Shown: piece after piece, positions 9,744 to 64,000 of the stretch | Position numbering within the stretch: position 1 is the first letter of the stretch | Layout of the letters: every line of letters starts with the position of its first letter | Assembly: GCF_024713945.1 (NCBI RefSeq) | Contig: NC_134680.1 | Location: 4,888,501-4,952,500 of the forward strand | DNA length: 64,000 nucleotides | Reading direction: 5' to 3' | Origin: Dermatophagoides farinae | Taxonomy: Eukaryota > Arthropoda > Arachnida > Sarcoptiformes > Pyroglyphidae | Notes under the pieces: generated by a model | The model's input: only the letters and a program-made list of their open reading frames with translations | Databases searched by the model: none | What the model was told of the DNA's origin: nothing | Translations under genes and position numbers: made by a program

Positions 9744-12618
9744 ATCTGAATGAATATGTGTGTGCGTGTGTGTACATATGTGTGGATTTTAATCATTTTA
9801 TCATTTGTTTTCGTTTGAAAAAAAAAGAATAAAAAAAATAAATCGTCTTCTTCATAAACGCACATTCATCATATGACATGAAAAGGAACAAAAAAATTTC
9901 GAAGCAATAATGAATAATTGAAAAAAAAACATATACAACCATCACATCCATTGATCATCATCGATCATCAATCATCATCATTTTTTATATATAAACAAAA
10001 AAAAATCATCATTGCCCACAGCATCAACGTATGGAATTGTCAACCAAAAAAAAAACAAAAACAAAAAAAAAATCTATTTTTCTTCCCATCGTGTGTATGT
10101 GTGTGTGTGTTTTTTTTTCATTTCGTTTGTTTCTTCACAACATCATCTATAGCAGTCATCATATTTGAAATCTTGTCAAAATATCTAAGTCTATGTTTCG
10201 TCGTTTTATTTCGTCTCGTTTTTTTTTTTGGTTATATTTCCCGCAAATCTCAGACGAATACCTAAAAACAATATATTCAAGTTTATTTATTCAATTAGCG
10301 AGAAGAAGAAAATTTTTCCTCAGAATTTGAATTCGAGAATTAAAAAACCCACCAAACAAATCAAAAAAAAAATATTGAAGAAATATTCCAAGAATTGTGC
10401 CAAGTAACAAAAATGGAAAAAATATTTTCGTCCGAATTTCCAATCTTTATCCATCATCAATCAAAACACGGAACAACAACGTTTTCAACAACAACAACAA
10501 CAACAACAAATTATTTATTTCTTTTTTTTCGAATGAAATGACTTTTTCCACTTCCATTCCACATTCAAATTGCGTAGAATCTTTTTTTAGCATTCTTCAA
10601 TGTTTATTATCAGTTTTTTTTCTGTTCATTTGATGCAAAATTTAATCCACGCACACCCCTGCACCACACACACACACATAGGTAAATGAATAATTTGAAT
10701 ATTTTTTTTTCATTGAAATTAATCATTCTTGTTTTTTTCGTTTGTAGAATTTCATCATTCATTCATTCGTTTCGTAAATAAAGCCATCATCATCATCATC
10801 AAACACGAATATTAACAAATGATTGAAAAAAATATCACCAATTTGTAGCAAGAAAAAGACTTGATTTTTGTTTGCATTCACATTGTTGGTTTGAATTAGA
10901 TTCAAAATTTTTTTTGTTGTCATCATTTTTTTTTTCTTTGGATCGTTTTGAATCCAAATTCATCATCATCATCATATTATTGCTCGACTATGTTGTTTTT
11001 TTTCACATAAAATAATCATCATCATCATCATCGTTTCACTATTTTCTCATTGCAAATTATATGGCTCATCATATTCATTCATTCATGTAGAAGACGAAAT
11101 GAAGACTGAAGAAATAATAAACCTTGAAGATGAACATTTTTGATCGGATGCGAATAAATAAATATATATCATCAAACATCAAAGATCATCGTGAAAGGGT
11201 AGTTCTTCTGTTCAATTTCTGGCCATCATAATTGAATGTGTGATGAAAACATTTTGCATTGATTCATTTGTCGTTGGTTTTTTTCTCATATTCACCAAAA
11301 TTGTTTCTATGAATCGAATCATTATCATCTTTAAAAATGACCATCATCGTTTGATAATTGCCGTTAATCATCATCAAGACTATCAATTATCATGATCGAG
11401 ATGATAGATATGTATGGTAATTATTATAATATAAAAGAAAGAATTCACAATTCGAATCATCATCAAAAATCGAATGTCCGTACATCCATCCATTCATCAC
11501 TTCATTCATTCATTTATATTCGATTCGATGTATCGATAGTAATCTTTCGAAATATTAATCGATGATGATGGAAATTTTTTTATATTGATGAGAAAAAAAC
11601 AAAAAAAAAACAATGAAATGATTCATCAAACGATTAACGGTTGAATTTTATAATGATAATAATAATAATAAATAAATAAATAATAATCCTTAATAATAAT
11701 AATAATAATAATACTTATATCCAGTATGGATTTCATAATAATAATAATAAAATAAAATAAATAAAAAATGTAAAAGAGTGGCGATGAAGCAAAACAAAAA
11801 ACAAAATAAAACAAAAAACAAAAAAAAAAATTATGTAAGAAACACACACCATACATTGACAAATTTTGTTTGAAATTTTTTTTCTTCTTTTTTTTTGTTT
11901 TCGGTATTCGTTAACCCTCGTTACATATATGTTTTGTGTGTAGTGCGTCTTGTCTTTGTCTTTGTGTGTGTGTGTGTGTTTGTGTTTACCTTGATTTTTT
12001 TTTCTCATCATCATCATTCATTAATCGTCCGATTTAAAAACAAAAACAACATTGAAAATGTCCACATATACACATCCAAATCTGTTATTTTGTTTGTTTT
12101 TTTTTCGTTTCGTTTCGTTTTTTTTTTCAAAATTTGTATCATAATAATAACAACAATTAAAGATCAAACACATAGAACTGATAGACAGAAACAAAAAAAA
12201 ATGCTCATCATTGTAACAACAACAACAACACGGCAGTAAATCAATAAACCAAACTCGGACACACACACACACACACACACACACAACGCCCATCATATCC
12301 ATTTAATTCTTTTCTCACAATTGTTATTGCTGTTGTACAAAAAAAAAATCAGAAAAAAAATTATTCTCTATTATTATAATTACACATGAAATGAAATGAA
12401 TGAAATCTTGAAATGATCATGTTCATTGATCATTTCAACCAAAAAAAAAAAAATTTTTTTTTCTTTTCAAACAAATTGAATCTATATATTATTACCATTT
12501 ATTGAATGAAGAAAAATTATTAAAATTGAGAGAAAAAAAATCCTTTGGATTCTTTTCTCTTCCCAAAAAATATCTTGTTGCGTTTGAAAATTTTTAAATT
12601 AAATTTTGAAATTAACCA
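9744..12618. other. 3' UTR of the ZFYVE1-like gene and intergenic DNA
   Basis: Tandem AATAAA-like signals lie at about 9826-9842, shortly after the stop. The rest is AT-rich with CAA, TCA, AATA and AC tracts, including an (AC)n run at 12259-12285. A 12-nt-arm hairpin lies at 12408-12438. No gene recognised; the long T/A-rich open frames look like repeat artefacts. Confidence 0.6.
12408..12438. repeat. Inverted repeat, 12-nt arms with 7-nt loop
   Basis: Arms at 12408-12419 (TTGAAATGATCA) and 12427-12438 are exact reverse complements, flanking a 7-nt loop. It lies about 190 bp upstream of the promoter of the next gene. It is not followed by a T-run in a terminator-like context, and eukaryotic function is unknown. 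Confidence 0.7.
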
Positions 12619-18801: not shown

Positions 18802-19311
18802 ATTATGTCAAGAATTGTTATTATTGTTTTTGGATCCCAACAACGACTACGGTGACGAACAATGACAATACAACAATCTTGAAATCTACAAGTAAAGAAA
18901 AAGTCCTGAAATTGGTTATTGTGTGTGTTTTTTTTGGTTGTTTATCAAGAAAAAAAACAACAGTTATATTTACATTGTCTGGCGCCAATTACACATTGTA
19001 TTTGTAGTAACAATAACAACACAATCGACTCGACATTGATAAAATCCATCAGGTTGGAATTGTTTTACTCTCTCTCTCTCCATCTCCTTCAATTGGCTTT
19101 TCCCATCATTTCATTGTATGCGCGTGTGAATGACAATTCCATAGTGATGATTATAAATCATATTTTTGATGAGGTAAGATTTTGTTTTTTTTTAATATAA
19201 AAAGCAACATTGTAATTGTAATTTTTTTTCACATTTTTTCCATTGTTTAGATTAAACAACAATAACATTTAATAACACTGTATAACCTCCTTAGTGTTAT
19301 TGTGAATCAAG
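18802..19311 (+). other. Probable spliced 5' leader of the SOCS gene
   Basis: A T-rich acceptor ends at 18801. A donor (GAG|GTAAGA) after 19173 and an acceptor (CATTGTTTAG) at 19241-19250 bound a likely 77-bp intron. Joining them gives only short upstream frames that stop before 19312. The region is therefore best read as untranslated exon sequence. Confidence 0.45.
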
Positions 19312-21126
19312 ATGCATTCAATGAATAGTTTGGATAATAATTATCACAATCATGCTGCCAATAATAATGACAATAATTGTCGTGGCCATAATCAATCATT
19401 AATTCGATCATCTTTATCTGATTCTGATCTAATTGCATCGTCATCATCATTATCACCACCGCCACAATCATCATCATTAGCCAATCAGAATACCATATCA
19501 TTATGTCGTGATTTACAAGTATTGATTCTAGATGATATTGACAATCATCATAATAATGATGATGATGATGATGAAAATTCATCAGCCATATTTCAATCAA
19601 TTTCGTGTGATAATCATTCGATTGCTAATGCAATCAATAATGATGAATCATTATCATCAACAAAATCAATGAAAAAACAATCAAATAAATCTCGTAAATC
19701 ATTGTTTATGATGAAAAAACGAAAATGGATCTCGACACCATTTGGATTCATTACTAATTGTTGTATGACACGAACCGATTCGATTGCCGATCTACAACAA
19801 CGATCATCGACTAATGATGAAGATTGTCAACCACAAAAACAACCAATCGTTAAATGCCAAATGTCAACCAGTAACGGTGTTGTGGACCAACAAACCTCTG
19901 GATCGATCAACAATATTAATGATAATAATAATGTTGTTCAAAGACAACATCAACATGACCATAACTTTAATGATGATGATGAAGATGACAATGTCGTAAA
20001 TGGCGATGCACACAGGGTTAATATTGATGATGATCTATCGTTTATGGATAATTTTCCACCTTTAAATCAACCATTAAGTCGAATTGTTTCGTTACGACGA
20101 CGTCACCCAAATACACCAATGTCACGAAGTCCTGAACCACCACCATTACCACCACATCCATTTCCAGTGGGTGTTGTATTGTCTGGTTTTTCAAATAGTT
20201 ATCTACATCATCCACATTTATCATCATCACACGATTCTTCACATCCAGAACAACAGGATAATAATATTTCATCGATCTCATCATCCGTAAATCTGAATCC
20301 TAATTCTGCTGCCTCATTATCAAGCGATGATGGTGGTGATGATACTTATCGACATGATAATGATGTATCAGTTGATGGTCAACATCATCATCATCAACAA
20401 CAACTGCAACAGCCACCGCATTTATATGAACCATATTCAATTCAAATGCCCATAATGAATCATCATATACAAATGGATACAAATAATATGAACCGTTCAG
20501 CTAGCCGTTCAACGCCTACATTTCATACACAGATTGATTACATTAATTGTTTGGTTCCTGATCTATTGGCCATTACTAATCGTAGTTTTTATTGGGGTAA
20601 GATGGATCGTTATGAAGCTGAACGTTTATTGGATGGTAAACCTGAGGGAACATTTTTGTTACGTGATTCCGCACAAGAAGATCATTTATTTTCCGTATCA
20701 TTTCGTCGATTTGAACGTTCATTACATGCTAGAATTGAAAATTGGGAACATCGTTTCTCATTTGATTCACATGATCCTGGTGTATTCTCATCAACTACTG
20801 TAACCGGTCTTATTGAACATTATAAAGTACCATCACATTGTATGTTTTTTGAACCAGTACTTACCAAACCATTGAATCGTACATTTACATTTTCATTACA
20901 ACATTTGGCACGTGTAACAATTTGTGATCGTGTTACATATGATTCAATTAATCGTTTACCACTGCCACAAATATTAAAAAGCTATCTTAAAGAATATCAT
21001 TATCGTATTAAAGTGCGTACGAAACATTTCGATGAATCATCATTATATCGATGGTTAGAACCGAATCATCATCATAATCAACAACAGCAACAACAACAAC
21101 AGCCACGTGTCTATTTTCATCAATAA
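19312..21126 (+). CDS. SOCS5: SOCS4/5-type suppressor of cytokine signalling
   Basis: A single coding exon of 604 residues. The N-terminal 400 residues are low-complexity and poorly conserved. The C-terminus has a segment reading [15 protein letters not shown], then an SH2 domain (about 425-525) with GTFLLRDS carrying the phosphotyrosine-binding Arg. A SOCS box follows (about 528-570), ending LKEYHY. These features match the SOCS4/SOCS5 subfamily (Drosophila Socs36E). Family role: the SH2 domain binds phosphotyrosine on cytokine or EGF receptors, and the SOCS box recruits elongin B/C and a cullin to ubiquitinate the target. The C-terminus has an extra His/Gln-rich tail. The start is the first in-frame ATG after the probable leader acceptor. 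It is convergent with the Hsp70 gene, 328 bp apart. Confidence 0.93.
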
Positions 21127-21454: not shown

Positions 21455-23463
21455 TTAATCTACTTCTTCTACGGTTGGACCACCACTATTAGAGCCACCA
21501 TTAGGACCGCCAGTCGGTACACCACCTGGATATGGACCACCAGCACCACCTTGATACAATTTCGTAATAATAGGTCGACAGATTGATTCCAATTCTTTTT
21601 GTTTATCTACGAATTCATCTTTTTCGGCTAATTGATTATTATCTAGCCAGCTAAGTACATCTTTGATTTTATTCAAAATGGTTGTGCGATCATTATCGGA
21701 TATTTTTGTCTTGATAGCATCATCTTCGATGGTATTTTTCATTTGGAATGTATATGATTCCAATGAATTTTTAGCCTGAATTCGAGATTGTTGTCGTTCA
21801 TCTTCTTCACGATATTGTTCAGCTTCATGTACCATTCGTTCAATATCATCTTTTGATAAACGACCTTTATCATTGGTAATAGTGATCTTATTCTGTTTAC
21901 CAGTACTTTTATCCACAGCCGATACATTCAATATACCATTAGCATCAATGTCGAATGTAACTTCGATTTGTGGTATGCCACGTGGTGCTGGCGGTATACC
22001 ATTCAGATCGAATGTACCCAACAGGTTATTATCCTTGGTCATGGCACGTTCACCTTCATATACTTTTATGGTAACACCAGGTTGATTATCGGCGTAGGTG
22101 GTAAATATTTGTGTTTGTTTCGTCGGTATAGTTGTATTACGTTTGATCAATGTTGTCATTACACCTCCAGCCGTTTCGATGCCCAAGGATAATGGAGCAA
22201 CATCTAAGAGAAGTAAATCCTTGACATTTTGTGATGTATCACCAGTCAAAATGGCAGCCTGTACAGCTGCACCATATGCTACGGCTTCATCTGGATTAAT
22301 CGATTTATTCAATTCTTTTCCATTAAAATAATCGGAAAGTAATTTCTGTATTTTTGGAATACGTGTTGAACCGCCAACTAATACGATTTCATCGATGTTT
22401 GTTTTATCCAATTTAGCATCACGCATTGCTTTTTCCACTGGTTCCAATGTTGAACGAAATAGATCCGAACACAATTCTTCGAAACGTGCACGTGTTATTG
22501 TTGAATGAAAATCAATACCTTCATATAATGAATCAATTTCAACCGATGATTGTGTTGATGATGACAGTGTACGTTTAGCACGTTCACAAGCAGTACGAAG
22601 ACGACGTAATGCACGTTTATTTGTTGATAAATCTTTAGAATATTTTCGTTTAAATTCCTGAACAAAATGATTGACCAGGCGATTATCAAAATCTTCACCA
22701 CCAAGATGTGTATCGCCTGCAGTTGATTTGACCTATATCAATATATAAATGTTAAATGAAAATTTAACACAATTAGCAATGTTAGGATGAAAAAAAATTG
22801 AAAATAACTTACCTCAAAAACACCATTATCGATAGCCAAAATGGATACATCGAATGTACCACCACCAAGATCAAATATCAATATATTTTTTTCACCACCT
22901 TTTTTATCCAGACCATAAGCAATAGCAGCAGCAGTAGGTTCATTGATGATACGTAAAACATTCAATCCAGCAATAGCACCAGCATCTTTGGTTGCTTGAC
23001 GTTGTGAATCATTGAAATATGCCGGCACAGTGATAACAGCATCGGTAACTTTATTACCCAAATAACCTTCGGCCGTTTCTTTCATTTTGGTCAATACCAT
23101 TGATGAAATTTCTTCAGGAAAAAATCGTTTTATTTCACCTTTATATTCGACTTCAATTTTTGGTTTTCCACCTTCATTGACCACTTTAAATGGCCAATGT
23201 TTCATATCAGATTGAACGGATGGATCATCAAAACGTCGACCAATTAAACGTTTAGCATCGAATACAGTGTTTGATGGATTCATAGCGACCTGATTTTTGG
23301 CCGCATCACCAATAAGCCGTTCAGTATCGGTAAAGGCAACATAACTTGGTGTTGTACGATTTCCTTGATCATTCGAGATGATTTCCACTTTACCATGTTG
23401 AAAGACACCGACACAAGAATATGTAGTGCCCAAATCGATACCAATTGCAGGTGCTTTCGCCAT
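21455..23463 (-). CDS. HSP70: Cytosolic Hsp70 chaperone (mite group 28 allergen type)
   Basis: Two exons on the minus strand, 23463-22813 and 22732-21455, joined across an 80-bp phase-0 intron, give 642 residues, the usual family length. The three Hsp70 signatures are present: IDLGTTYS near the start, [12 protein letters not shown] about residues 198-209, and [11 protein letters not shown] in the second exon. The C-terminus has a Gly/Pro-rich tail and ends EEVD, the TPR-cochaperone docking motif of cytosolic forms. It is an ATP-dependent chaperone for folding and refolding proteins. Hsp70 of dust mites is the group 28 allergen. The upstream region has two heat-shock-element arrays and a TATA box, so the gene is probably heat-inducible. 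This is notable because many animal stress-induced Hsp70 genes lack introns. Confidence 0.97.
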
Positions 23464-23660
23464 TATTTATCGATTCAAATGAAAACAATAATAATAATAA
23501 TAATGATGATGATGATAAAATTCACAAGAAAAATCCAAAATTCTTTTCAACAATATTGTTGAATGAACGAACACAAGAAAAAAAACAATGTTTTTCAATT
23601 AACCACACTGTTCGACAAACAAATTTATTATGATACGTTTTGTTGATTGCAGCAGTTGTT

Positions 23661-47625: not shown

Positions 47626-50169
47626 TTAGATCAAAATTGAAAATTTTAAACGTACAATCGAAACTAAATGACCAACGATTCGGGCAACATCTTCGAAATT
47701 ATTCACCATTCTTGACAATGTGAAACGATTAAATACATCAAGGCTATTATTATTATTATTATTATTATTAGAAATTTGATGACAATTTTCATCGCCAACA
47801 ATTGAATTTGAAGCACTAGGTAGGGGAGTGTGGTTGATGTTGCTGTTGTTGTTAGGCATTAGAAATATTGAACATACATTTTCCATACTATTCGAATGTC
47901 CAGTAATACGTTCGAATAATTGATATTCATTTCTCATTATGGTCATCAATAAATAATGAATTCTATTGATAGGTGACATTTCATTTGATGTCGACGTTCT
48001 TGTTGTTGTTGTTGTTGTTGTAGTTTTTGTTCTACAATCTAATGAATCAATCATCTTTCCTGGATCATAATTTCTGATCAATAACATTGCAGTCAATAAT
48101 GGTAAAAATCGATATTTTTCTTTCAAAAATAACAACGATTTTCTATCATCCATCATTAACATCGACGATTGTTTTTGATTACAATTATTTATACCAAAAA
48201 CATTAAACGTTTGTATTGGTTTTGGTTGCTGTTGTGGTTGAGATGATGACTGTGTTACAAACGTTAATTTCCGTGATTTAAGAAATGCTCGATGACATAC
48301 ACTTTGAAATGAATGTTGATCAGCAAATAAAAGTCCAATAAATGAACATTCATCATCGGTAGTATTAGTCGGTTTTAACATTTCAGTGGTTGTTGTCGAT
48401 GTTGTTGTTGAATCTGTTAAATTTATTTGTTGTTTATTATTATCATCATTATCTATATTGTCGTCGACATCGCTGGAAACATTGCCAAGAATTTTCAATT
48501 TCTGATATAATTCATCTAAGTAATCATGAAATGTTTGTTCACCAAATATGATTCCATTAAATTTCAATGATTTTTCTGCGGTTGGATAAACGGCTGCCAA
48601 TATCATACAAAGAAGCCAATGTTTAGCACGATGAATAAGATCGGCCTGATCATTGATATGAATCTGACGAAAATCATCCATATGTGATATGAATTTCGTT
48701 AACATTTCATCAGTCAACATGGCTAGATATTCCATAATGGTCACTGCAGAACGTTGACGCATACTAATCGCTATGCTTGGATTACATGGCTGTTTATCAT
48801 GTGGATGATGATAATAATAATAAGGATATTCCTGTACATTATTGACCAGTCTTAGAAACATTCGAAATTGTGCCATTAATGTATCGATAAACATTGCATA
48901 TGAATGATATAATTGTCGTTGAAAATTTAAAGTTTCTGGATGAAAAATTATATCCAATGGATCCAAACTATTGATTGAATAAACAAAAAAAAAACAAAAT
49001 TATCAACAAAAAAAAATAACCAAATAAAGTATTTCAAACCGTTTCAATTTTGGTTCCAATGCTGATGGTTCATATTTCATTCCAGCATCGATACATTTTT
49101 TAAAACGACAGGATTTACAACAACGACGACGATTCTGTTCGACTAGAATTGGACAACGTTTTGGTTGCTGTTGTTCTGACAATGTTGATATTGTGCCATC
49201 ACCATTATCCTGATGATGATGATGAACGAATGAATTGTTACATTTATAAATATCAAGATAACCTTTATAGATTTCCATATCGGCACCACTATCCAATAAT
49301 TTTTGTTGATTTGCTTTCAATGCCAAAGTAGCCAAAATGGTACGACGAAAAAATCCTTTACAACCTTCACATGCGAATACACCATAATGTCGGCCAGATG
49401 CAAAATCACCACAAATAACACATTGTGGATTGATTCCTTCATTTTTACAATTACGTTTAAATTGTTTATATGGTGATTCTAATGATGATGATGTTGATGG
49501 TGATAATGATGAACATGAAGATAATGTTGATGGCGATGAAAACGATGGCAACGGCGATGATAATGATGGTGTTGTTGATGACTTTAATTTCAATAATTTC
49601 CTTTTCAATATACCATGAACATTAAGTATCGGTTTTGATTGATGTCCATTTTTTTGTTGATTATGATCATTTGTAATCGACGACGATGACGACGACAACA
49701 ACAATGTTGATGATGACGGGGTTTGTGAAAATACTGGTGTTGATGGATTGTCAGGGTTATCGTAAGAGTTAACCATTGGTTGATGATCATTGGTCATCAC
49801 CATTGCCATTGGTTTGATAGATGATGATGACGATGATGACATATCATACCAACTTGAAGTTTTTGGCATCATTTTTTTCGTTTCAATATAATTGCCATTA
49901 ATCGCATCAAATGTCATCATTACTTGATTGGATGTTGTAGTCGTCGTCGTCGTCGTCGTCGGTGGTGGTGGTGGTGGTGAAAAATTTTCCTGCTTTAAAA
50001 TTTGATGATTATTCATCATTATCGTTGATGATGAATTAATGTCAATATTTAATAATCCATCTGATGATGATTGCTGTTGTTGATCAATTCTGGTGTATGA
50101 TGTTGATGTGGATGATGATGCAATCGATGAATTCGGTGGCTGTGGAAATTTATTCTGTATTTCCATCAT
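47626..50169 (-). CDS. Divergent nuclear receptor with expanded DNA-binding domain
   Basis: Two exons on the minus strand, 50169-49040 and 48967-47626, joined across a 72-bp intron, give 823 residues. Residues 1-245 are Ser/Thr/Pro-rich. The DNA-binding domain starts near residue 250. Its first zinc finger is canonical (CVICGD...[17 protein letters not shown]-box EGCKG). Thirty-nine residues, not the usual 15, then lead to the second finger, and its first Cys pair is 28 residues apart, not 5. The second finger ends [15 protein letters not shown]. The ligand-binding-like region begins near residue 378 and is broken by Asn/Ser/Thr runs; a clear AF-2 helix is not seen at the C-terminus. EGCKG points to NR1/NR2-type half-sites. 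The subfamily is not identified. No GT-AG intron of plausible length and phase could remove either insertion. Confidence 0.88.
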
Positions 50170-55012: not shown

Positions 55013-56210
55013 ATGTTTGACAATTATTTTTCAACTAATAAGGATGAAAATCATCTACTCAATTGGTTTCTTTTCTTTTTTGGGTAAGAACTGATCGATG
55101 ACAAAAGAAAAATATTTAGTGAAAATTAATTCCAAATTTTTCAATCATAGCCATCTGGGGATCCAGCTGAAACCGATTGATTATCGTAACCGAAAATGTT
55201 TAATCCAAGTAATGGTGAATATCCTAATTAATGTCATTGGAATTCTATATTATAATCAAAAAGCTGTTTCATTTTGGGATTATGATGCCATAAAAAATTC
55301 TCAAAAAACAGCAAAAAGCCTGAATAACTTCATGTCTTTATTTGGTAATAATTATATACATGTATTCTTGATAATCAATCCAATAGTATTCTATTGTATT
55401 GGACCATCTTTAAATCGTTTGATGGCATTATCACCATTCAAAAATATCTATCGTTCTCGAAAAAAATCAATACATGTGTTAGCAATTATGCTATCGACGA
55501 TAACTGTTAATTTTGTAGGATTCACAATATTTGATGGATCACAAAATTTGAAGAAAAATCATACACTAAGAACAATAATTTTTGAATTTTTCATCAATTA
55601 TTATATTAGTGTCTCTTATTTTATCCCTGGTTTGGCATTGAATTATGTTAAATTTGCTACAATAGAAATGTTGAAAGCAATATCAGCCACAAGATCTGAA
55701 CGAAAAAATATTGAAACAATAATCAAAGAAATTGGTGAAATGGCCACTTTGAATCGAAAAATATCGTCTATTCTATCACCAATGTTTTCCATATTTTTGA
55801 TTAGTACAATGTTCGATATGATTGTCTTATTCATGTGGTTCAGTAATATGGGATGGGATTTTATTCGAATATTTTTTGCGTCATTAACCACTTGGTTTTA
55901 TATAGCATATCTTGTTCGTTTGGATAACCAAATCATACAAATATTTGAAAAAATTTCAACAAATTTGCTTGAAAATAATCTTTTTGAATGTTGTGGCCAT
56001 TGTTGTAATAATAATCGAATGGTAGAATATGGATATATCAACAAGAAAATATATTTCTGTAAACAAAAACAACGAATAATTGAATGTTATCGGCTATATG
56101 AAGAAGATTTTCGAATGAATATCTACGATTTTTGCCCAGTAGATTATCAATTAATATTAGATTCATTTCTATTCATGTTAATATTTGTTGTTATATCACT
56201 TCAAACCTGA
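55013..56210 (+). CDS. Gustatory-receptor-like 7TM protein, copy A
   Basis: Two exons, 55013-55083 and 55151-56210, give 376 residues; the join is phase 2 after a Gly codon, as in the other copies. The start ATG opens a short hydrophilic exon containing ENHLLNW. Seven hydrophobic segments follow. A cytoplasmic loop with LNRKIS and SPMF precedes TM5, as in arthropod gustatory and odorant receptors. Between TM6 and TM7 is FECCGHCC, then a conserved stretch ending in DF-x-MN-x-YDF. The C-terminus is LIFVVISLQT. These receptors are ligand-gated cation channels in sensory cells; ligand unknown. It is most similar to copy B, including sequence past the stop codon. The family call rests on topology and loop motifs, not on a clear TM7 TYhhhhhQF signature. 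Confidence 0.7.
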
Positions 56211-56570
56211 TTATTTTCACTGTTTTCATTGTCCATTTGAATAACTACATGAATAAAACATAGTTATTTTTAAATATATATTGACGTTACCGAATTGATG
56301 GCTATTATACGCATATTAGGCATTAGGCATTATAACAGATCAATAAGATCAGATGATGATTAATTGATTAATTAATTAATTAATGAAAATTTTGTTGTTT
56401 TTTTATTGTTGTCATCGAAACATAATAGAATATATAGAAAAAAAAGAAACTTTCAAGGTTATAAAGGCTACATCAAACGAATATTCGAACGAAAATAAAA
56501 TGAAGAAAAATACCATTCATTTTTAATGTTTTAATCATCGAGGAAATTCTGGATTATTACTGGAAAAAAA
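56211..56570. other. Spacer between receptor copies A and B
   Basis: AT-rich, no gene. The first bases after the A stop are repeated after the B stop (TTATTTTCACTGTTTT). The GTTGTCATCGAAACATAATA stretch near 56410 matches the one near 54870. This places the duplication unit at about 1.54-1.57 kb. Confidence 0.7.
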
Positions 56571-57780
56571 ATGTTATTCAAAAATTATTTTTCAAATAAT
56601 AATGATGAAAATCATCTGCTCAATTGGTTCATTATTCTGTTCGGGTAAGCAATAATGGTTGACAGAAATATATTTTCAAAATTAATTCGAATTTTTTTTC
56701 CAATTTTTCAACAATCACAGCAATATTGGTATTCAATTAAAACCGATTGATTATCGTAATCGAAATAGTTTTATCCAAACAATAATGAACATCATGATCA
56801 GTATCATTGCCAATTTATATTTCAATATATTGTATATACCATTTTGGAATTATGATAATATAAACAATTCACAGAAAACAACAAAAAGTTTAAATAATTT
56901 TATGGCCTTATTTGCCAATCATTATTTACAGGCATCACTCATAATCATTTCTATTGTATTTTATCGTATTGGACCATCAGTATTTTGTTTGATGGATTCC
57001 GAATCATTTAAAAATATTTATCGTTCACGAAATAAATCATTACATGTGATGGCAATCATTGTATTGATTATTTTTCTAGATCAGGTGGAATTTATTCTAT
57101 TCAATCCAACAACATATATCGAGAATCAAACTAAATTTTGGACACTTATTTTAAAAATATTCATCGATTATTATATTTGTGTGTCATATTACATTACTCT
57201 TTTTATATTGAATTATGTTAAATTTGCTACAATAGAAATGTTGAAAACAATATCAGCCACAAGATCTGAAGAAAAAAATGTTAAAACAATAATCAAAAAA
57301 ATTGGTGAAATGGCCACTTTGAATCGAAAAATATCGACACTTTTATCACCAATGTTTTTGATATTTTTGTTCAGTTCATCGTTAGATATGATTGTCTTGT
57401 TCATGTGGTTCACAGATGGTGGATGGGATTTTATTCGATTATTTTTTGCATCATTAACCACTTGGTTTTATATAGCATATCTTGTTTGTTTGGATAACCA
57501 AATCATACAAATATTTCAAAAAACTTCAACAAATTTACTTGAAAATAATCTTTTTGAATGCTGTGGCCATTGTTGCAATGATAATCGAATGGTGAAATTT
57601 GAAAATATCCACAAGAAAATGTATTTTTGTAAACAAAAACAACGAATAATTGAATGTTATCGGCAATATGAAGAGGATTTTTACATGAATATCTACGATT
57701 TTTGTCGTATAGATTATCAATTCATATTAGATTCATTTTTATTCATTTTAATATTTGTTGTTATATCACTTCAAACCTGA
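56571..57780 (+). CDS. Gustatory-receptor-like 7TM protein, copy B
   Basis: Exons 56571-56644 and 56721-57780 give 377 residues with the same phase-2 intron. It is a close tandem duplicate of copy A: the block from LNYVKFATIEMLK through the loop IGEMATLNRKIS, and the whole region from TTWFYIAYLV to LIFVVISLQT, is nearly the same. Differences concentrate in the second to fourth TM segments and the loops between them, for instance HYLQASL against NYIHVFL. It keeps FECCGHCC and YFCKQKQRIIECY. The second exon is open throughout and no key residue is missing. Variation in the outer membrane half with a conserved C-terminal core is what ligand diversification of chemoreceptors looks like. Confidence 0.7.
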
Positions 57781-58323
57781 TTATTTTCACTGTTTTTTTT
57801 GGCATTTTCGATGAATTCATCTTTTTTTTCGTGATAATTCCATTATTCAAACATGGTATTAAAAATACAAATTGAATTCTATAGAACAATATGAACGATC
57901 TATGTTGAACTTTTAATGAAATTCAGTAGAATTTCGCAAGAATTTAACAATCAATATAGACTATAAGATGAATGAACAGCCCATCAAAATTCGACCAATC
58001 GATTCGAATAAATAACCTTCAATAATATCGATACAAAAGAAAAAAAACCGATATTGATTATAATATATACATGACTATTCTATTATCCACCACAGTACTG
58101 TTATATCCAATGACATATCATCAATTGTAGTAGATCAATGAAACAAAATTTGTCATGACCAAAAAAAAAAAAAAAAATGAAAGCGAACAATTTTGTTATT
58201 TTTAGTTGACAAAATTGTGTTGTTGTTGTTATTGTTTTTTACTGTTATTATCATTTATCCGATGATGAGATGATGTGGATCTGTTTGACAATTGAAAATC
58301 GAAAAAAATAAAGAAAAGTAGAA
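57781..58323. other. Spacer between receptor copies B and C
   Basis: AT-rich DNA with an A-run and GTT/TTA tracts. No gene or convincing promoter element seen. Confidence 0.5.
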
Positions 58324-59572
58324 ATGAAAAATTATCTTCTCGATTGGCTTTTCAATGTCATAGGGTAAGTGTATTTTTTTTGTTATTTTTAATTCACGAA
58401 AAAAAAACAGACAAATGACTGAAAAACAAAATTTACTATTCATAACATATAGATTTTCTGGAATACAATTAAAACCGATCAAAATAACCGATTGGAAATG
58501 TATAATAAATATGGCTATCAATATCATTATCAATTTAATAATATTTATAAATTTTGTTATACTACGTGAATTTGGCTGGAATACTGACCCCGGTGAATTG
58601 AATCAAACATATCGTAATTTTAATCATTTTGTTTCAATTGCCACCAATTCTTATGCACCATTATTATGGTTATTTGTAACCATTTATCAATACATGAATG
58701 GTAAACATATTGTACGTTTATTGGGTCAAAAATCATTTCAAAGAATTTATCATTCAAAACGACATTCGATGATTGTAATCGTTACAATGGCCACATTTCT
58801 TGGACCTTATATCTATGAACAAATTGAAATGATTTACGATGCTCAAAATCCATTAAAAATGGCAATATTACAAATAAAAATTTATTGTGTAAATCTTTGC
58901 TATTTTCTACCATTATTCTTAATTAATTATGTTAAATATGCAACATTAAAACGATTACAACGTATGTCGATACGGCCACATCGAAATTGTAATAATTTGT
59001 TACGTAAAAAAATCAATCTTGATGAAATAAAAAAATTGGCCCATCTGAATAGAAAATTTGCCGACATTCTTTCGCCAATATTTATGGCTTGTTTAATATC
59101 CAGTAGTCTTGATATTGTAGCCGTATTTTTTTGGATACCATTAGATTTACATTTTTCACATGTTTTTATCTATACAATTACATCTTGGTGTTATCTTTCA
59201 TATTTGATCTATCTGGATTTATCAATCGATCGTATTATTACCAATATTATTGATGAAATGATTAATGATCGTTTAAAATGTTGTGGCCATTGTTATCATC
59301 ATCATCATCATCATCATCATCATAATCAATATCGATTCAATATTATATATGATCAACGTAAATATTTTAAAAATTATCATTATCAATCAATGATACGATT
59401 GAAACAAAGTCTATATTGTAGCGATAATATTCGAATCATCGAAGGATATCGTATATATCGAATAGATTTTCATATGAATCTTTTCCACATAAGACGTATC
59501 GATTTCCTGTTTATAATGGATTCATGGCTTTTTTTATCTACATTTATTATATTATCACAAACTTTGTATTAA
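58324..59572 (+). CDS. Gustatory-receptor-like 7TM protein, copy C
   Basis: Exons 58324-58364 and 58453-59572 give 386 residues. The short first exon encodes MKNYLLDWLFNVIG up to the phase-2 intron. An alternative acceptor at 58410 is also in frame and would add 14 residues, so two forms are possible; homology favours 58453. Seven TM segments, LNRKFADILSP before TM5, and KCCGHC between TM6 and TM7 are present. Directly after KCCGHC it has a run of nine His residues, absent from the other copies. The later motif reads YCSDNIRIIEGYRIY, and the protein ends in FIILSQTLY. It is the most divergent member and sits between the A/B and D/E pairs. Confidence 0.7.
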
Positions 59573-60005
59573 CAATTGATGATGATCATCAATCTAGGTG
59601 TGTATAAAAAAATTTTTTTTTATTCGATTTTTTTTTGTTTTCACAATCGATTGATATTGTTCTATAGAGAAAAAAAATGAAAGGTGGAGGGGAATAATTT
59701 ACTTTTATCGACTGAAATAATATTTGAATGTTGATTGTTATTGTTATTAATTAATTGATTAATTATTATTGATTGAAAAAATAAATTTGATAATTTTTTT
59801 TCGACGACATGTTTTTATTTGTCAATTTTATTGAAAAGATCTTGATGATAAAACAAACACACACACACACACACATTCAGTTGTCAAGTGTTCCAGGTTG
59901 TTAGTCTCCTTTTTTGAAATGAGCAATGAAAGAAGAATTAATTTCATTCAATATTCGAAATATTTATCATCTGTGTCATTACTAAATTCTTGAACGACGA
60001 GAAAT
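59573..60005. other. Spacer between receptor copies C and D
   Basis: AT-rich with an (AC)n tract near 59856-59875 and a TTAATTAATTGA patch. No gene seen. Confidence 0.5.
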
Positions 60006-61345
60006 ATGAATCGTTTTCTATGGGCTATGAAAGATTCATGGATATTGTTCAATACAAAATTGCAAGACAAAATGATCGACAATAATGATGATGATGATGA
60101 TGAAAAAAATTATCTACTCAAATGGCAATTCATTACATCTGGGTAAGTATTTTTTTTTGTTTGCAATTGGAACTTATGAATTTCATTTAAAAAAAAAATT
60201 TCCATCATACCCGGATAGATATTTTGGCGCACAAATGAAAACATTACAATTTTCAAGTTTAAAATCAATAATCAATGCAATAATCAATTTAACACTCAAT
60301 GGAATCATATTCTATTCATATGTCATAAAACGTTATTTTGAATGGGAAATTGTATTGGAAAATTCAAATTATTATGATAATAGAAAATTCCATAATTTCA
60401 TTTTAATATTTTCCACTTATTATTGTCAAATATTTTGGCTATTTATAACAATTTATCATTATATTTATTTACGTTCAATTGTACAATCAATGTCATCATC
60501 GATATTTCAACGTATTTATCGTCATAAATATCATTTATTTACAATTTCTAGTATAACATCAATAATAATGGCACCAGTTACAATAAATGAATTTTATGCA
60601 ATATTTTTTGGAATCAAATCGAATATATTTGAAACTTTGTATTCGGTACTCATTAGATATTGTATTAATAATCAATTCCTTGTTCCAATGATGATTATGA
60701 CCTTATGTTAAATATGCAACCATTGTATCATTGAAATCGATTACAACCATTGATGCAGATGATGTACAACATCATCATGGTCGTCGTAAATCATCGAAAT
60801 GGATCAAGAAACAATTGGACAATGAACGAATTAAACGTATGGAAATCAAACAATTGGCAGTGATGAATCGATATTTCTCACGAATGTTATCACCATTATT
60901 ATTATTATATGTAATAACATACAATTTGGATATGATTACATTCTTTTTCTGGCAACTGAAACGATCACGATTTTTTTTCACCTTTTTAACATTGACATCA
61001 TTTTGGAATTATTTTGCATATATTGTATTTTTGGATGATCGAATTGAAAAATTACTTGAAAAAATCATCAAAAATGTTACCACCAATAGCCAATTCAAAT
61101 GTTGTGGTCAATGTCATCAATATAGATTGCTTAATCGTTTTCGTTTGGAAGATGATGGACAAATTTTATCGCCTATCAATAGTTTTTATTGTAGCCAAAT
61201 TGCACATTGTATTGAATTCTATAATCAATATTCAGAAGATTTTCATATGAATGTTTTTGATATTTTTCATTTGAATTTTGTATTCATGTTTGATTCATGT
61301 TTATTCGCCATATCATTTATAATATTATCATTACAAACATTGTAA
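60006..61345 (+). pseudogene. Gustatory-receptor-like copy D, frameshifted
   Basis: Exons 60006-60142 and 60219-61345 correspond to the family model, with a longer N-terminus (Asp run) and the conserved phase-2 intron. The frame breaks near 60703: relative to copies A-C and E there is one extra base in the codons for the VKYAT motif, so the frame ends at TAA 60709-60711. The remaining coding part continues in the +1 frame to 61345. Both halves otherwise look intact, with RIYRHKYHLF before the break and FKCCGQC, FYCS and DFHMNVFDI after it. This suggests a very recent loss, a polymorphism, or a sequencing error. The spliced length leaves a remainder of one base, consistent with a single insertion. 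Confidence 0.75.
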
Positions 61346-61778
61346 AATTAATTAAACACACAAATTATTTATTGCACAATTTGGACAACAAATAAAAAAA
61401 AAATTTTGATTGATAATACATCATTGTTGCCATCTATCGAACTATACACAAATATCCAAATTGGTAAACAGTAATGAATATTTATTCTTCATCACGAGAA
61501 ACAGCCACCATTCTATTGTAATATAACGATTCTTTAATTATGAAAACGAATCGACAAATTCTACTTGTTTTTTTTTGTTCCGATCAATTATCTAATCAAT
61601 TTTTCTATTGTTTTTTTTTGCAGATCAATATATTGAACAAATACAATTAATTAATTAATTTCAATATTATTTTGTCAAATGACTTTATTTGGAATTTTTT
61701 TCATAAACAAGAAAAATGGATCTTTTCATTTGATGATGGAAAAAAAGTTACATCATCTGCTGCTGTTGCTGCTGCTGA
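61346..61778. other. Spacer between receptor copies D and E
   Basis: Contains an ATAGATGGC motif (reverse strand) at 61429-61437 and a (CTG)n-like patch near 61757-61778. No gene seen. Confidence 0.5.
61429..61437 (-). promoter_or_regulatory. ATAGATGGC motif (reverse), between receptors D and E
   Basis: GCCATCTAT on the plus strand, with context TCGATAGATGGCAA on the other strand. It lies about 90 bp past the D stop codon. Function inferred from recurrence. Confidence 0.35.
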
Positions 61779-63006
61779 ATGTTGAATGTTGAATCCAAGC
61801 GAAAAAGAATTATGAATGTAATGGATGAAGAAAAAAATTATCTACTCAATTTGTTTACCAATAGTATTGGGTAAGTGTGAAATTAAATTTTTAAATGAAA
61901 AAAAAAATTTTAAAATTTCAATATTCTGAACACATAGATATACTGGTATACAAATGAAACCATTAAAATGGTACGATTGGCAATCAATAATCAATGTGAT
62001 GATCAATTTGATTATCAATGGAATTATATTCTATACATTTGTCATTACAAATTATACATCATGGGATGTTTTGGTGGATACATCGAATAAAGAATATAAA
62101 AATTTAAATAATTTCATCGCAATGTTTTCCAATCACTATGGTCAAATAATGTGGTTGTTCATAACAATTTATCAATATTTTTATATGCGTTCAATTGTCC
62201 GATCAATGTCATCAACGATATTTCAACGTATTTATCGTCATAAATATCATTTATTCATTATGTATGGCAAAACATTATTGATAATGGCACCACTTTTATT
62301 TAAAGAATTATATTACATCTGTTTTGGATATGGTACAAATTTTTTCGAAACTATTTTCATTATATTCATTTGTCATTGTATTGATACTTCATTTGTTATG
62401 CCATTGTTTATAATGGCGTATGTTAAATATGCAACAATTGAATCATTGAAATTAACGATGAAAATGAATAAGAATAATGTTGTTGATGAACAACAAAAAC
62501 AATGTATGGAAATTAAACGATTGGCCATGATGAATCGTCATTTCTCACGGATATTATCGCCATTATTATTATTCTGTTTGATTTCATTTCATTTAGATTT
62601 GATTACATTATTTTTCTGGCATCTAAAAGGAAACGAATTTCTATTATCATTCATATCATTATTAACATTTTGGAATTATCTTGCCTTTGTTTTACATATG
62701 GACTGGCAAATTGTTCAATTAATCGAAAAAATTATCGAAATTATTCAAACAAAACAATTTCAATGTTGTGGCCAATGTTATCAATATAGACAGTTTAATT
62801 GTCTATTGAATAATGGTGGTGGTTATTCATCGATGAAAAGTTTTTATTGTAGCCATAATTCACGTTGTATTGAATTCTATTATGAATATTTAAATGATTT
62901 TCATATTAATCTTTACGATATTTGTCATGTTGATTTTGTATTTCTTTTTGATTCATTCCTATTCACTATTACATTTATTGTATTATCATTGCAGATATTT
63001 TATTAA
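61779..63006 (+). CDS. Gustatory-receptor-like 7TM protein, copy E
   Basis: Exons 61779-61870 and 61938-63006 give 386 residues from the outermost in-frame ATG; ATGs at 61812 and 61821 are also in frame and the later ones match the family's short N-terminus better. It pairs with copy D: RSMSS-x-IFQRIYRHKYHLF is shared. The frame is intact through VKYAT, where D is broken. Seven TM segments, MMNRHFSRILSP before TM5, QCCGQC between TM6 and TM7, then FYCSHNSRCIEFYYEY and DFHINLYDI are visible. The end is LSLQIFY. As the intact member of the D/E pair it would carry any function D has lost. Confidence 0.7.
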
Positions 63007-63182
63007 CAAACATTTTTTTTCCACATTACTAATTAAATTGAAATTTCAATTATATGGATATATTTAAATAATTGAAAATTTAATCAATTTCTTGTTAATT
63101 AAATCAATAGTGATATATAAGCGATTCGTTTTCACAATAAGCTAGATTGTATGTATTATATCGTTGAAATTGGCCGATAAAA

Positions 63183-64000
63183 ATGATCATCAAACAATTT
63201 TCATTCGGCCATTTATTATCGTTACGGTTAACAGCAATCATATTATTATTACAATCACCATCATCAATGTTGTTTGTGAATGCATTACAACAAAACCGAA
63301 ACTATGATGACATTTCTATTGATCAAATAATCATACCATATAAAACGATATATGGTATTCCGAATAAATGCAAAAAAATATCCGAATATCGAACAATTGA
63401 ACAAAATTATCAATCATGTCAATTGAATTCATTGAAAAAATGGCAAATTACTGTAGATCAATATGTAAGTAATATGATGTTGTTGTTGTTGAATTATTAC
63501 TATGAATGGAATTTTTGTTTCTTTTCTCTCTTTCTCTCAATTATACAGTATACCGAAACTTTAAATTTTTGTTGTTTTGTTTACGATGTATTAAATTGTG
63601 AAATAAAAGTTTTATCCATTTGTGATTCAGAATATTCCAATCAAAATGAACGAGAAACAAGACGATTGTTTGATAAATCATGTAAACCGATTATAAAGAA
63701 TGATGCATGCAATATAGATGATAAAGATAAATGGAAAGAATATGCTACATACGCTGGTATTGCAATAGCTGGAATTTTTATAATCGTAATAATAATATGG
63801 GGCGGTAGAAAAATTTATTATCGAATAACCACTACACCTGAAATGAAAGCAATGGAGGCATATAAGAAAGAAAAATTTGAACAATTATTGGAAATGGAAA
63901 CAATTCGTACAATTTATGATCAAGAAGTTGATAATTTGGACAATATTTGGCACGAAAGTACAGCTAAAACGATAAAATCAGGAAAGCCAACAACGTCTAG
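63183..64000 (+). CDS. Type I membrane protein with Cys-rich ectodomain (partial)
   Basis: Exons 63183-63464 and 63549 to the window end are in phase 0 and still open at base 64000. The N-terminus is a signal peptide (hydrophobic core TAIILLLQ, about residues 17-24). The ectodomain (about 40-160) holds about ten Cys, including CCF and SCK motifs, with acidic and polar linkers. A single TM segment (IAIAGIFIIVIIIW, near residues 170-185) is followed by a basic stop-transfer GGRKIYY and a charged, helical cytoplasmic tail. No family is recognised. The same-strand position 176 bp after receptor E is probably chance, though a sensory accessory role cannot be excluded. Confidence 0.7.
   Translation, partial: MIIKQFSFGHLLSLRLTAIILLLQSPSSMLFVNALQQNRNYDDISIDQIIIPYKTIYGIPNKCKKISEYRTIEQNYQSCQLNSLKKWQITVDQYVSNMMLLLLNYYYEWNFCFFSLFLSIIQYTETLNFCCFVYDVLNCEIKVLSICDSEYSNQNERETRRLFDKSCKPIIKNDACNIDDKDKWKEYATYAGIAIAGIFIIVIIIWGGRKIYYRITTTPEMKAMEAYKKEKFEQLLEMETIRTIYDQEVDNLDNIWHESTAKTIKSGKPTTS

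Follow-up and report, generated by a model that had tools for sequence, protein, structure and literature searches.

Five tandem genes in the genome of the mite Dermatophagoides farinae probably encode divergent gustatory receptors (GRs), members of the insect-chemoreceptor superfamily that have multiplied by tandem expansion in the genome of this astigmatid-like mite. They lie on the + strand at positions 55013-63006 of a 64,000-nucleotide stretch of contig NC_134680.1 (positions 4,888,501 to 4,952,500, referred to below as the window, with C4 denoting the contig), and we designate them G1 to G5. Judging from sequence comparison and structural models, the genes appear to represent a lineage-specific GR branch that is cryptic at the sequence level and that carries, in a loop predicted to face the cytosol, a conserved set of cysteines. 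The kind of receptor is thus already known, and the interest lies in the loop and in how large the hidden family is.

Each gene model read from the window consists of a short first exon and a long second exon reaching through the last transmembrane (TM) helix to the stop codon. A single intron of 67-88 bases (GTAAG...AG), inferred from the DNA, interrupts every gene in phase 2 and splits a Gly codon, and the claim of an earlier sequence-only reading of the window that all five copies share such an intron was thus confirmed (5/5). The array copies are genes under constraint, because the matches between them are far beyond chance and because of the ratios of nonsynonymous to synonymous substitution rates (dN/dS, calculated by the NG86 method). 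G1-G3 are 35-39% identical to G5 over their length (E 1.7e-48 or better), the two pieces of G4 are 52-53% identical to G5 (E 8.6e-46 or better), and G1 and G2 share 69% identity over exon 2. Among intact copies dN/dS is 0.37-0.53 (four pairs), and in two pairs that include a frameshifted relative from elsewhere on the contig (C4_6673) it is 0.27-0.34. The reading frame of G4, a point absent from the sequence-only reading, shifts at about 60701-60711 in the present assembly, so that this copy is not intact and is either a pseudogene or an assembly error; dN/dS is 0.995 against the relative C4_5645 and 0.68 against G5 for its first half, and 0.45 and 0.42, respectively, for its second half.

Probable kinship with gustatory receptors

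The sequence-only reading described the genes as gustatory-receptor-like, and this description stands as far as the predicted fold, the alignment of TM7 to neighbouring GR-like genes, the borderline matches of paralogs to the Pfam family 7tm_7 and a crude topology are concerned, with no support from Pfam matches of the window genes themselves. The structure modelling it called for placed insect GRs and odorant receptors (ORs) first among the solved structures in each list of comparisons, the models being of modest (G5, exon 2) and low (G1) confidence. The top 19 entries (VIA) for the G5 model and the top 20 for the G1 model are GRs or ORs, with a clear drop after them, and both models point to the fold of seven-transmembrane ion channels (7TMIC) with long TM4-TM6. 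The AlphaFold2 model of G5, with a predicted local distance difference test (pLDDT) score of 63.3, matches BmGr9 and shows TM7 split into two helices (residues 306-321 and 333-354). With the G1 model, all 9 OR entries come after the 11 GR entries, the border between them being practically tied (15.8 vs 15.7), and with the G5 model GR and OR entries are interleaved within about 2 Z; the choice between GR and OR is not settled by the fold alone. As for topology, simple hydropathy resolves G5 into seven segments, and in all four genes considered Lys and Arg outnumber Asp and Glu in the loops TM2-3 and TM4-5; an N-terminus located inside the cell would fit.

The genome contains a group-2 allergen homolog that scores 108 bits against Der p 2, which is in keeping with an astigmatid mite, but this homolog differs visibly from the Dermatophagoides sequences compared. 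Relatives of the window genes were sought by protein searches in the 62.4-Mb assembly (22 contigs), and the alignment and tree used below comprise the second-exon products of 20 of the approximately 30 places at which the family was found, with G4 left out. One of these paralogs, C9:562k, matches window gene G2 at E 4.3e-12, and at the same time its match to 7tm_7 covers almost the entire profile (E 0.0015-0.0024, 17.7-18.4 bits vs the cut-off of 26.6); another, C9:672k, matches 7tm_7 at E 0.008-0.0098. No Pfam family except 7tm_7 is matched by two or more of the 20 rows (3/20 for 7tm_7, best E 0.0024, below the cut-off), and reversed copies of three paralogs gave no match to 7tm_7 (0/3). The kinship to GRs that these paralogs indicate through Pfam is suggestive only.

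The sequence-only reading had considered the canonical TM7 signature as replaced by an S-x-Q or SLQ ending, which did not hold, as the pattern.[YF]x5Q. fits 17 of the 20 family rows (e.g. SYIVIIQQT, AYIVLSLQT, TFIVLSLQI, IFVVISLQT). The SLQ(T) of the window genes is the end of a degenerate [TSAIG][YF]-x5-Q-T, in which the final F of the GR signature TYhhhhhQF has given way to T (I in G5). The three rows outside the pattern are G3, whose TM7 end (TFIILSQT) is one residue shorter than in the other copies, C4_6673, frameshifted before TM7, and C7_512, with L for Q. The signature thus appears to be degenerate, its main losses being the final aromatic residue and, in the branch with the cysteine motif, Tyr exchanged for Phe. 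A hidden Markov model of the family aligns collinearly, and in the same register, with a GR-like gene at C4:5.65 Mb through LNYIVILLQTEN; hhalign gave a value of 92.5% over 55 columns of TM7a-7b for the family against the GR-like group at that place, with a second profile made of four rows, three of them partial. For comparison, the corresponding motif in BmGr9 is 436-TYLVILIQF-444, and passages of its structural description ascribe roles in the ion path to its T, Y, Q and F (PMC11100771).

The window genes appear to share with BmGr9, DmGr43a and DmGr64a (PF08395, 7tm_7), all among the best structural matches of the models, seven predicted TM helices, long TM4-TM6, a split TM7 and a Q near the C-terminal end, and with AgamOR28, MhOR5, AaegOR10 and Orco the same 7TMIC fold. 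They differ from the insect GRs in sequence (the GR matches listed are 6-14% identical), in the lack of a Pfam match, in Q-T or Q-I for Q-F and F for Y in TM7, in the extra Cys loop, and in the lack of 3' phase-0 introns, exon 2 being open through TM7 and the only intron, near the 5' end, being in phase 2. According to passages of two papers, 3' phase-0 introns are general but not universal in GRs (PMC9998090, PMC2680840). Their absence does not exclude GR membership, because Gr42-46 of Daphnia pulex have lost all three ancestral phase-0 introns, with Gr46 having internal phase-2 introns (PMC2680840). In certain other Daphnia GRs, as in the window genes, the protein stops directly behind the TM7 motif; unlike the window genes, Gr42-46, compared here by description only, come with no mention of a Cys loop in the passages concerned (PMC2680840). 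The Grl proteins of Drosophila offer another parallel in that they were recognised by structure and some have a variant TM7 motif, but in the portions of their description they are drosophilid, whereas the window family is larger, arranged in tandem and found in a mite (PMC9998090).

Several observations weigh against identifying the window genes as GRs with a conserved cytoplasmic Cys set. Their only Pfam hit is one stray weak match to a phage holin (E 0.096), NCBIfam gave no meaningful match for G5 and G1, no PDB sequence match was obtained with either G5 as a single protein or the 20-row family profile, and C9_671a, close to C9_672b, has no 7tm_7 match. The model of G1 is of poor quality (pLDDT 49.0), and Foldseek returned E values of 0.018 or worse, never 0.001, with TM-scores of 0.31-0.42 and root-mean-square deviations of 9.6-14.3 Å for the GR and OR entries in rows 1-9. 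The Cys loop has pLDDT below 50 in the G5 model (residues 273-304), with no ligand geometry visible, and mostly below 50 in the G1 model too. Hydropathy gives G1-G3 an eighth weak N-terminal peak (1.05-1.35) besides the seven segments, and in three of four genes the TM6-TM7 loop has no net positive charge. Finally, TM7 of the window genes is without the Tyr and the final Phe, and in G3 it is one residue short.

Part of this evidence would also suit proteins that have the seven-transmembrane ion channel fold but serve some job other than chemoreception, since Pfam is blind to the window genes and a fold says nothing on function; GR-like proteins found by structure are, in passages of one paper, of mostly unresolved ancestry (PMC9998090). 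We nevertheless regard such a different role as unlikely in view of the many fast-evolving tandem copies, some of them broken, and of a second cluster of the window family that adjoins, by a few kb, the GR-like genes at C4:5.65 Mb. Chemoreceptor families usually show just such a pattern. The divergent GR identity remains our preferred interpretation, and from the family we infer a sensory and channel function, a tetrameric state and the topology.

A conserved cysteine set before TM7

All five window genes have a CCG[HQ]C motif in the TM6-TM7 loop, followed by [YF]-C-x4-[RH]-x-I-E-x-Y and D-F-x-[MI]-N, in agreement with the sequence-only reading (5/5). The motif is also found in related genes beyond the array, namely C4:5645k, C4:5646k and C4:6673k; it thus occurs in seven of the 20 aligned rows and in G4, and no other located family place overlaps any hit of the corresponding DNA pattern. 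All four cysteines (the three of the motif and the later one of [YF]C) are invariant in these eight genes (8/8), as is the Gly of the motif, while H or Q occupies the fourth position of the motif and the loop is for the most part variable in both sequence and length. At the distal Cys column, Cys is present in 7/7 motif rows vs 1/13 others (C7_512). The motif is informative only at its aligned place, because the bare 15-base DNA pattern is common in the genome (50 sites vs 14 for a backward control), eight of the 50 sites lying within family genes. With the other 42 outside located family genes, the pattern was dropped as a finder of further branch members.

In the tree, a branch with support of 82/83, or 79/79 without the loop columns, separates the seven motif rows from the others; we consider this support moderate. 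The distinct mite chemoreceptor clade proposed by the sequence-only reading is thus supported within this genome only, for the eight motif genes of which seven are in the tree. It counts against a neat set acquired as a whole that two of the loop cysteines occur in C5_4362, that C7_512 carries Cys at the distal position and that in two C1 rows a Cys lies one column off. Because of these partial sets, the four cysteines do not seem to have been strictly gained together and the set may have been assembled stepwise.

It is quite improbable that the motif is a mere leftover of common descent devoid of function. Such a leftover would be expected to sit in a single branch, as the motif genes do, and the DNA pattern by itself is common; however, the branch is old, with exon-2 identity of 32-37% between window genes from its two halves, and yet the four cysteines are kept in a loop that is otherwise mostly variable. 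For G1 and G2, a recent pair, the loop is the more conserved part (dN/dS 0.24 and 82% identity over 62 codons) compared to the body before it (dN/dS 0.49 and 64% identity over 268 codons), a contrast that fits a variable ligand pocket combined with a conserved gating end.

The loop should be cytoplasmic, as it is in BmGr9 according to passages of PMC11100771, because this follows from the alternation of TM segments starting from a predicted internal N-terminus and from the fold match to GRs. This bears directly on the suggestion of the sequence-only reading that the Cys/His loop could form disulfides or bind a metal. Disulfides bracing an extracellular loop would be in keeping with an even number of invariant cysteines, with the charge of the loop noted above and with the loop lacking a direct structure. 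The alternation nevertheless puts it on the side of the positively charged TM2-3 and TM4-5 loops, and the fold match puts it in the cytosol (GR orientation after passages of PMC11100771), so that we consider disulfides very improbable. Palmitoylation of CCG[HQ]C(C), which would tether the loop to the membrane in place of a metal site, is a less remote alternative, although still an unlikely one: the cysteine pairs occur in the predicted cytoplasmic loop some 24-25 residues past the predicted end of TM6 (G1, G2, G5), and H or Q at the fourth position leaves no fixed metal ligand there, but the strict C-C-x2-C, the invariant distant Cys and the invariant Gly exceed what palmitoylation needs. We tentatively prefer a metal (zinc) site formed by the four cysteines, a speculative idea that we hold with less than even confidence.

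Modelled on known GRs, four subunits would assemble into a ligand-gated cation channel of seven-transmembrane proteins, with a ligand pocket formed by TM1-TM6, the tetramer held together by the cytoplasmic ends of TM4-TM6 and by TM7a, and a pore lined by TM7b, close to whose outer mouth the Gln of ...Q-T would sit. Within the cytoplasmic TM6-TM7a loop of one branch, CCG[HQ]C would pair with the Cys just before TM7a, and a bound zinc ion would pin the end of TM6 to TM7a and so tune assembly or gating. That this mite branch uses a cytoplasmic four-Cys metal or redox site whose zinc or redox state sets gating from inside the cell is a doubtful extension of the idea. The passages and listings of the GR/OR literature consulted contain no gating controlled in this way, and the titles and abstract openings of the GR/OR and mite GR papers listed mention no Cys loop of this kind.

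The family in the genome and the surroundings of the array

After merging, the relatives are distributed over contigs C1, C2, C4, C5, C7 and C9, and several of the places are broken. A junction in phase 2 at a Gly codon, comparable to that of the window genes, was recognised in 15 of the 21 genes examined (the 20 aligned ones and G4); one of these has a GC donor and another could use either of two acceptors. C1_845 and C1_844 are open across the site and have no intron there, and in the remaining four no junction was found by a simple search. With like junctions in paralogs on other contigs, the intron was dropped as a mark of the array. A dense tandem cluster of about six members, roughly half of them broken, occupies the minus strand at C7:511001-521000 (L054). 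The Cys-branch gene at C4:6673.5-6674.6k (L050:3587-4633, - strand) may have a GC-AG intron (with GCAAGT as donor), and close to its 3' end a frameshift leaves TM7 in another frame. A weak hit inside the window (10189-10407, 13.2 bits) was rejected as a relative, its alignment looking by eye like chance.

The GR-like genes at C4:5650001-5660000 (L049) form a tandem group of longer genes, two ending in LNYIVILLQTEN. One of them (L049:7778-8377) matches 7tm_7 above the cut-off in the genome search (28.7 bits) and just below it when run singly (E 8.9e-6, 25.7 bits), while the whole open reading frame (ORF) at L049:4411-6168 has no 7tm_7 match and reaches only E 0.32 when trimmed. The genome search with 7tm_7 yielded two places over the cut-off, neither in the window family; one is an ORF on C6 at about 145 kb (L056:5007-5837, + strand) that matches both 7tm_7 (34.5 bits) and the odorant receptor family 7tm_6 (28.6 bits) above the Pfam cut-offs.

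Table 1. Genes of the array and their CCG[HQ]C motifs.
Feature	Window position	Strand	Contig position	Details
G1	55013..56210	+		exons 55013-55083, 55151-56210; 376 aa; CCGHC; C-terminal end IFVVISLQT
CCGHC of G1	55989..56003	+	C4:4944489-4944503	
G2	56571..57780	+		exons 56571-56644, 56721-57780; 377 aa; CCGHC; nearest to G1
CCGHC of G2	57559..57573	+	C4:4946059-4946073	
G3	58324..59572	+		exons 58324-58364, 58453-59572; 386 aa; CCGHC, then Tyr and nine His
CCGHC of G3	59279..59293	+	C4:4947779-4947793	
G4	60006..61345	+		exon 1 60006-60142; first frame 60219-60711; second frame 60701-61345; CCGQC; frameshifted
CCGQC of G4	61100..61114	+	C4:4949600-4949614	
G5	61812..63006	+		exons 61812-61870, 61938-63006; 375 aa; CCGQC; C-terminal end TFIVLSLQIFY
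CCGQC of G5	62764..62778	+	C4:4951264-4951278	TM6-TM7 loop

The nine His codons of G3 are a CAT repeat at window 59297-59323 (+), one residue after CCGHC. Directly downstream of the array (63168-63998, +) is the start of a possible gene for a single-TM membrane protein with several cysteines, whose product has no Pfam match above the cut-off. Further features noted by eye in the window are a nuclear-receptor-like DNA-binding domain with a long low-complexity N-terminal part (49003-50169, -), an HSP70-type chaperone gene with two long ORFs (21455-23466, -) and an ORF resembling an SH2/SOCS protein whose N-terminal part is long and disordered (19306-21126, +).

Significance for mite chemoreception

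GRs have been named in astigmatid mites before, including TputGR1 of Tyrophagus putrescentiae (PMC6065420) and the GR-like KPM04823 of Sarcoptes (PMC4930577). In the portions of the sources concerned, Dermatophagoides pteronyssinus is credited with four GR-like genes by KEGG (PMC12105342), and a table for Sarcoptes has one GR-like protein (PMC4930577). Astigmatid mites thus look GR-poor in annotation, as opposed to the approximately 30 family places in the one genome analysed here. Should the family prove general, a large share of the taste repertoire in dust and parasitic mites may have escaped notice, and searching by fold could bring it to light. With the Cys loop, for its part, it could be tested in a simple way whether tuning of a chemoreceptor channel from the cytosol is possible.

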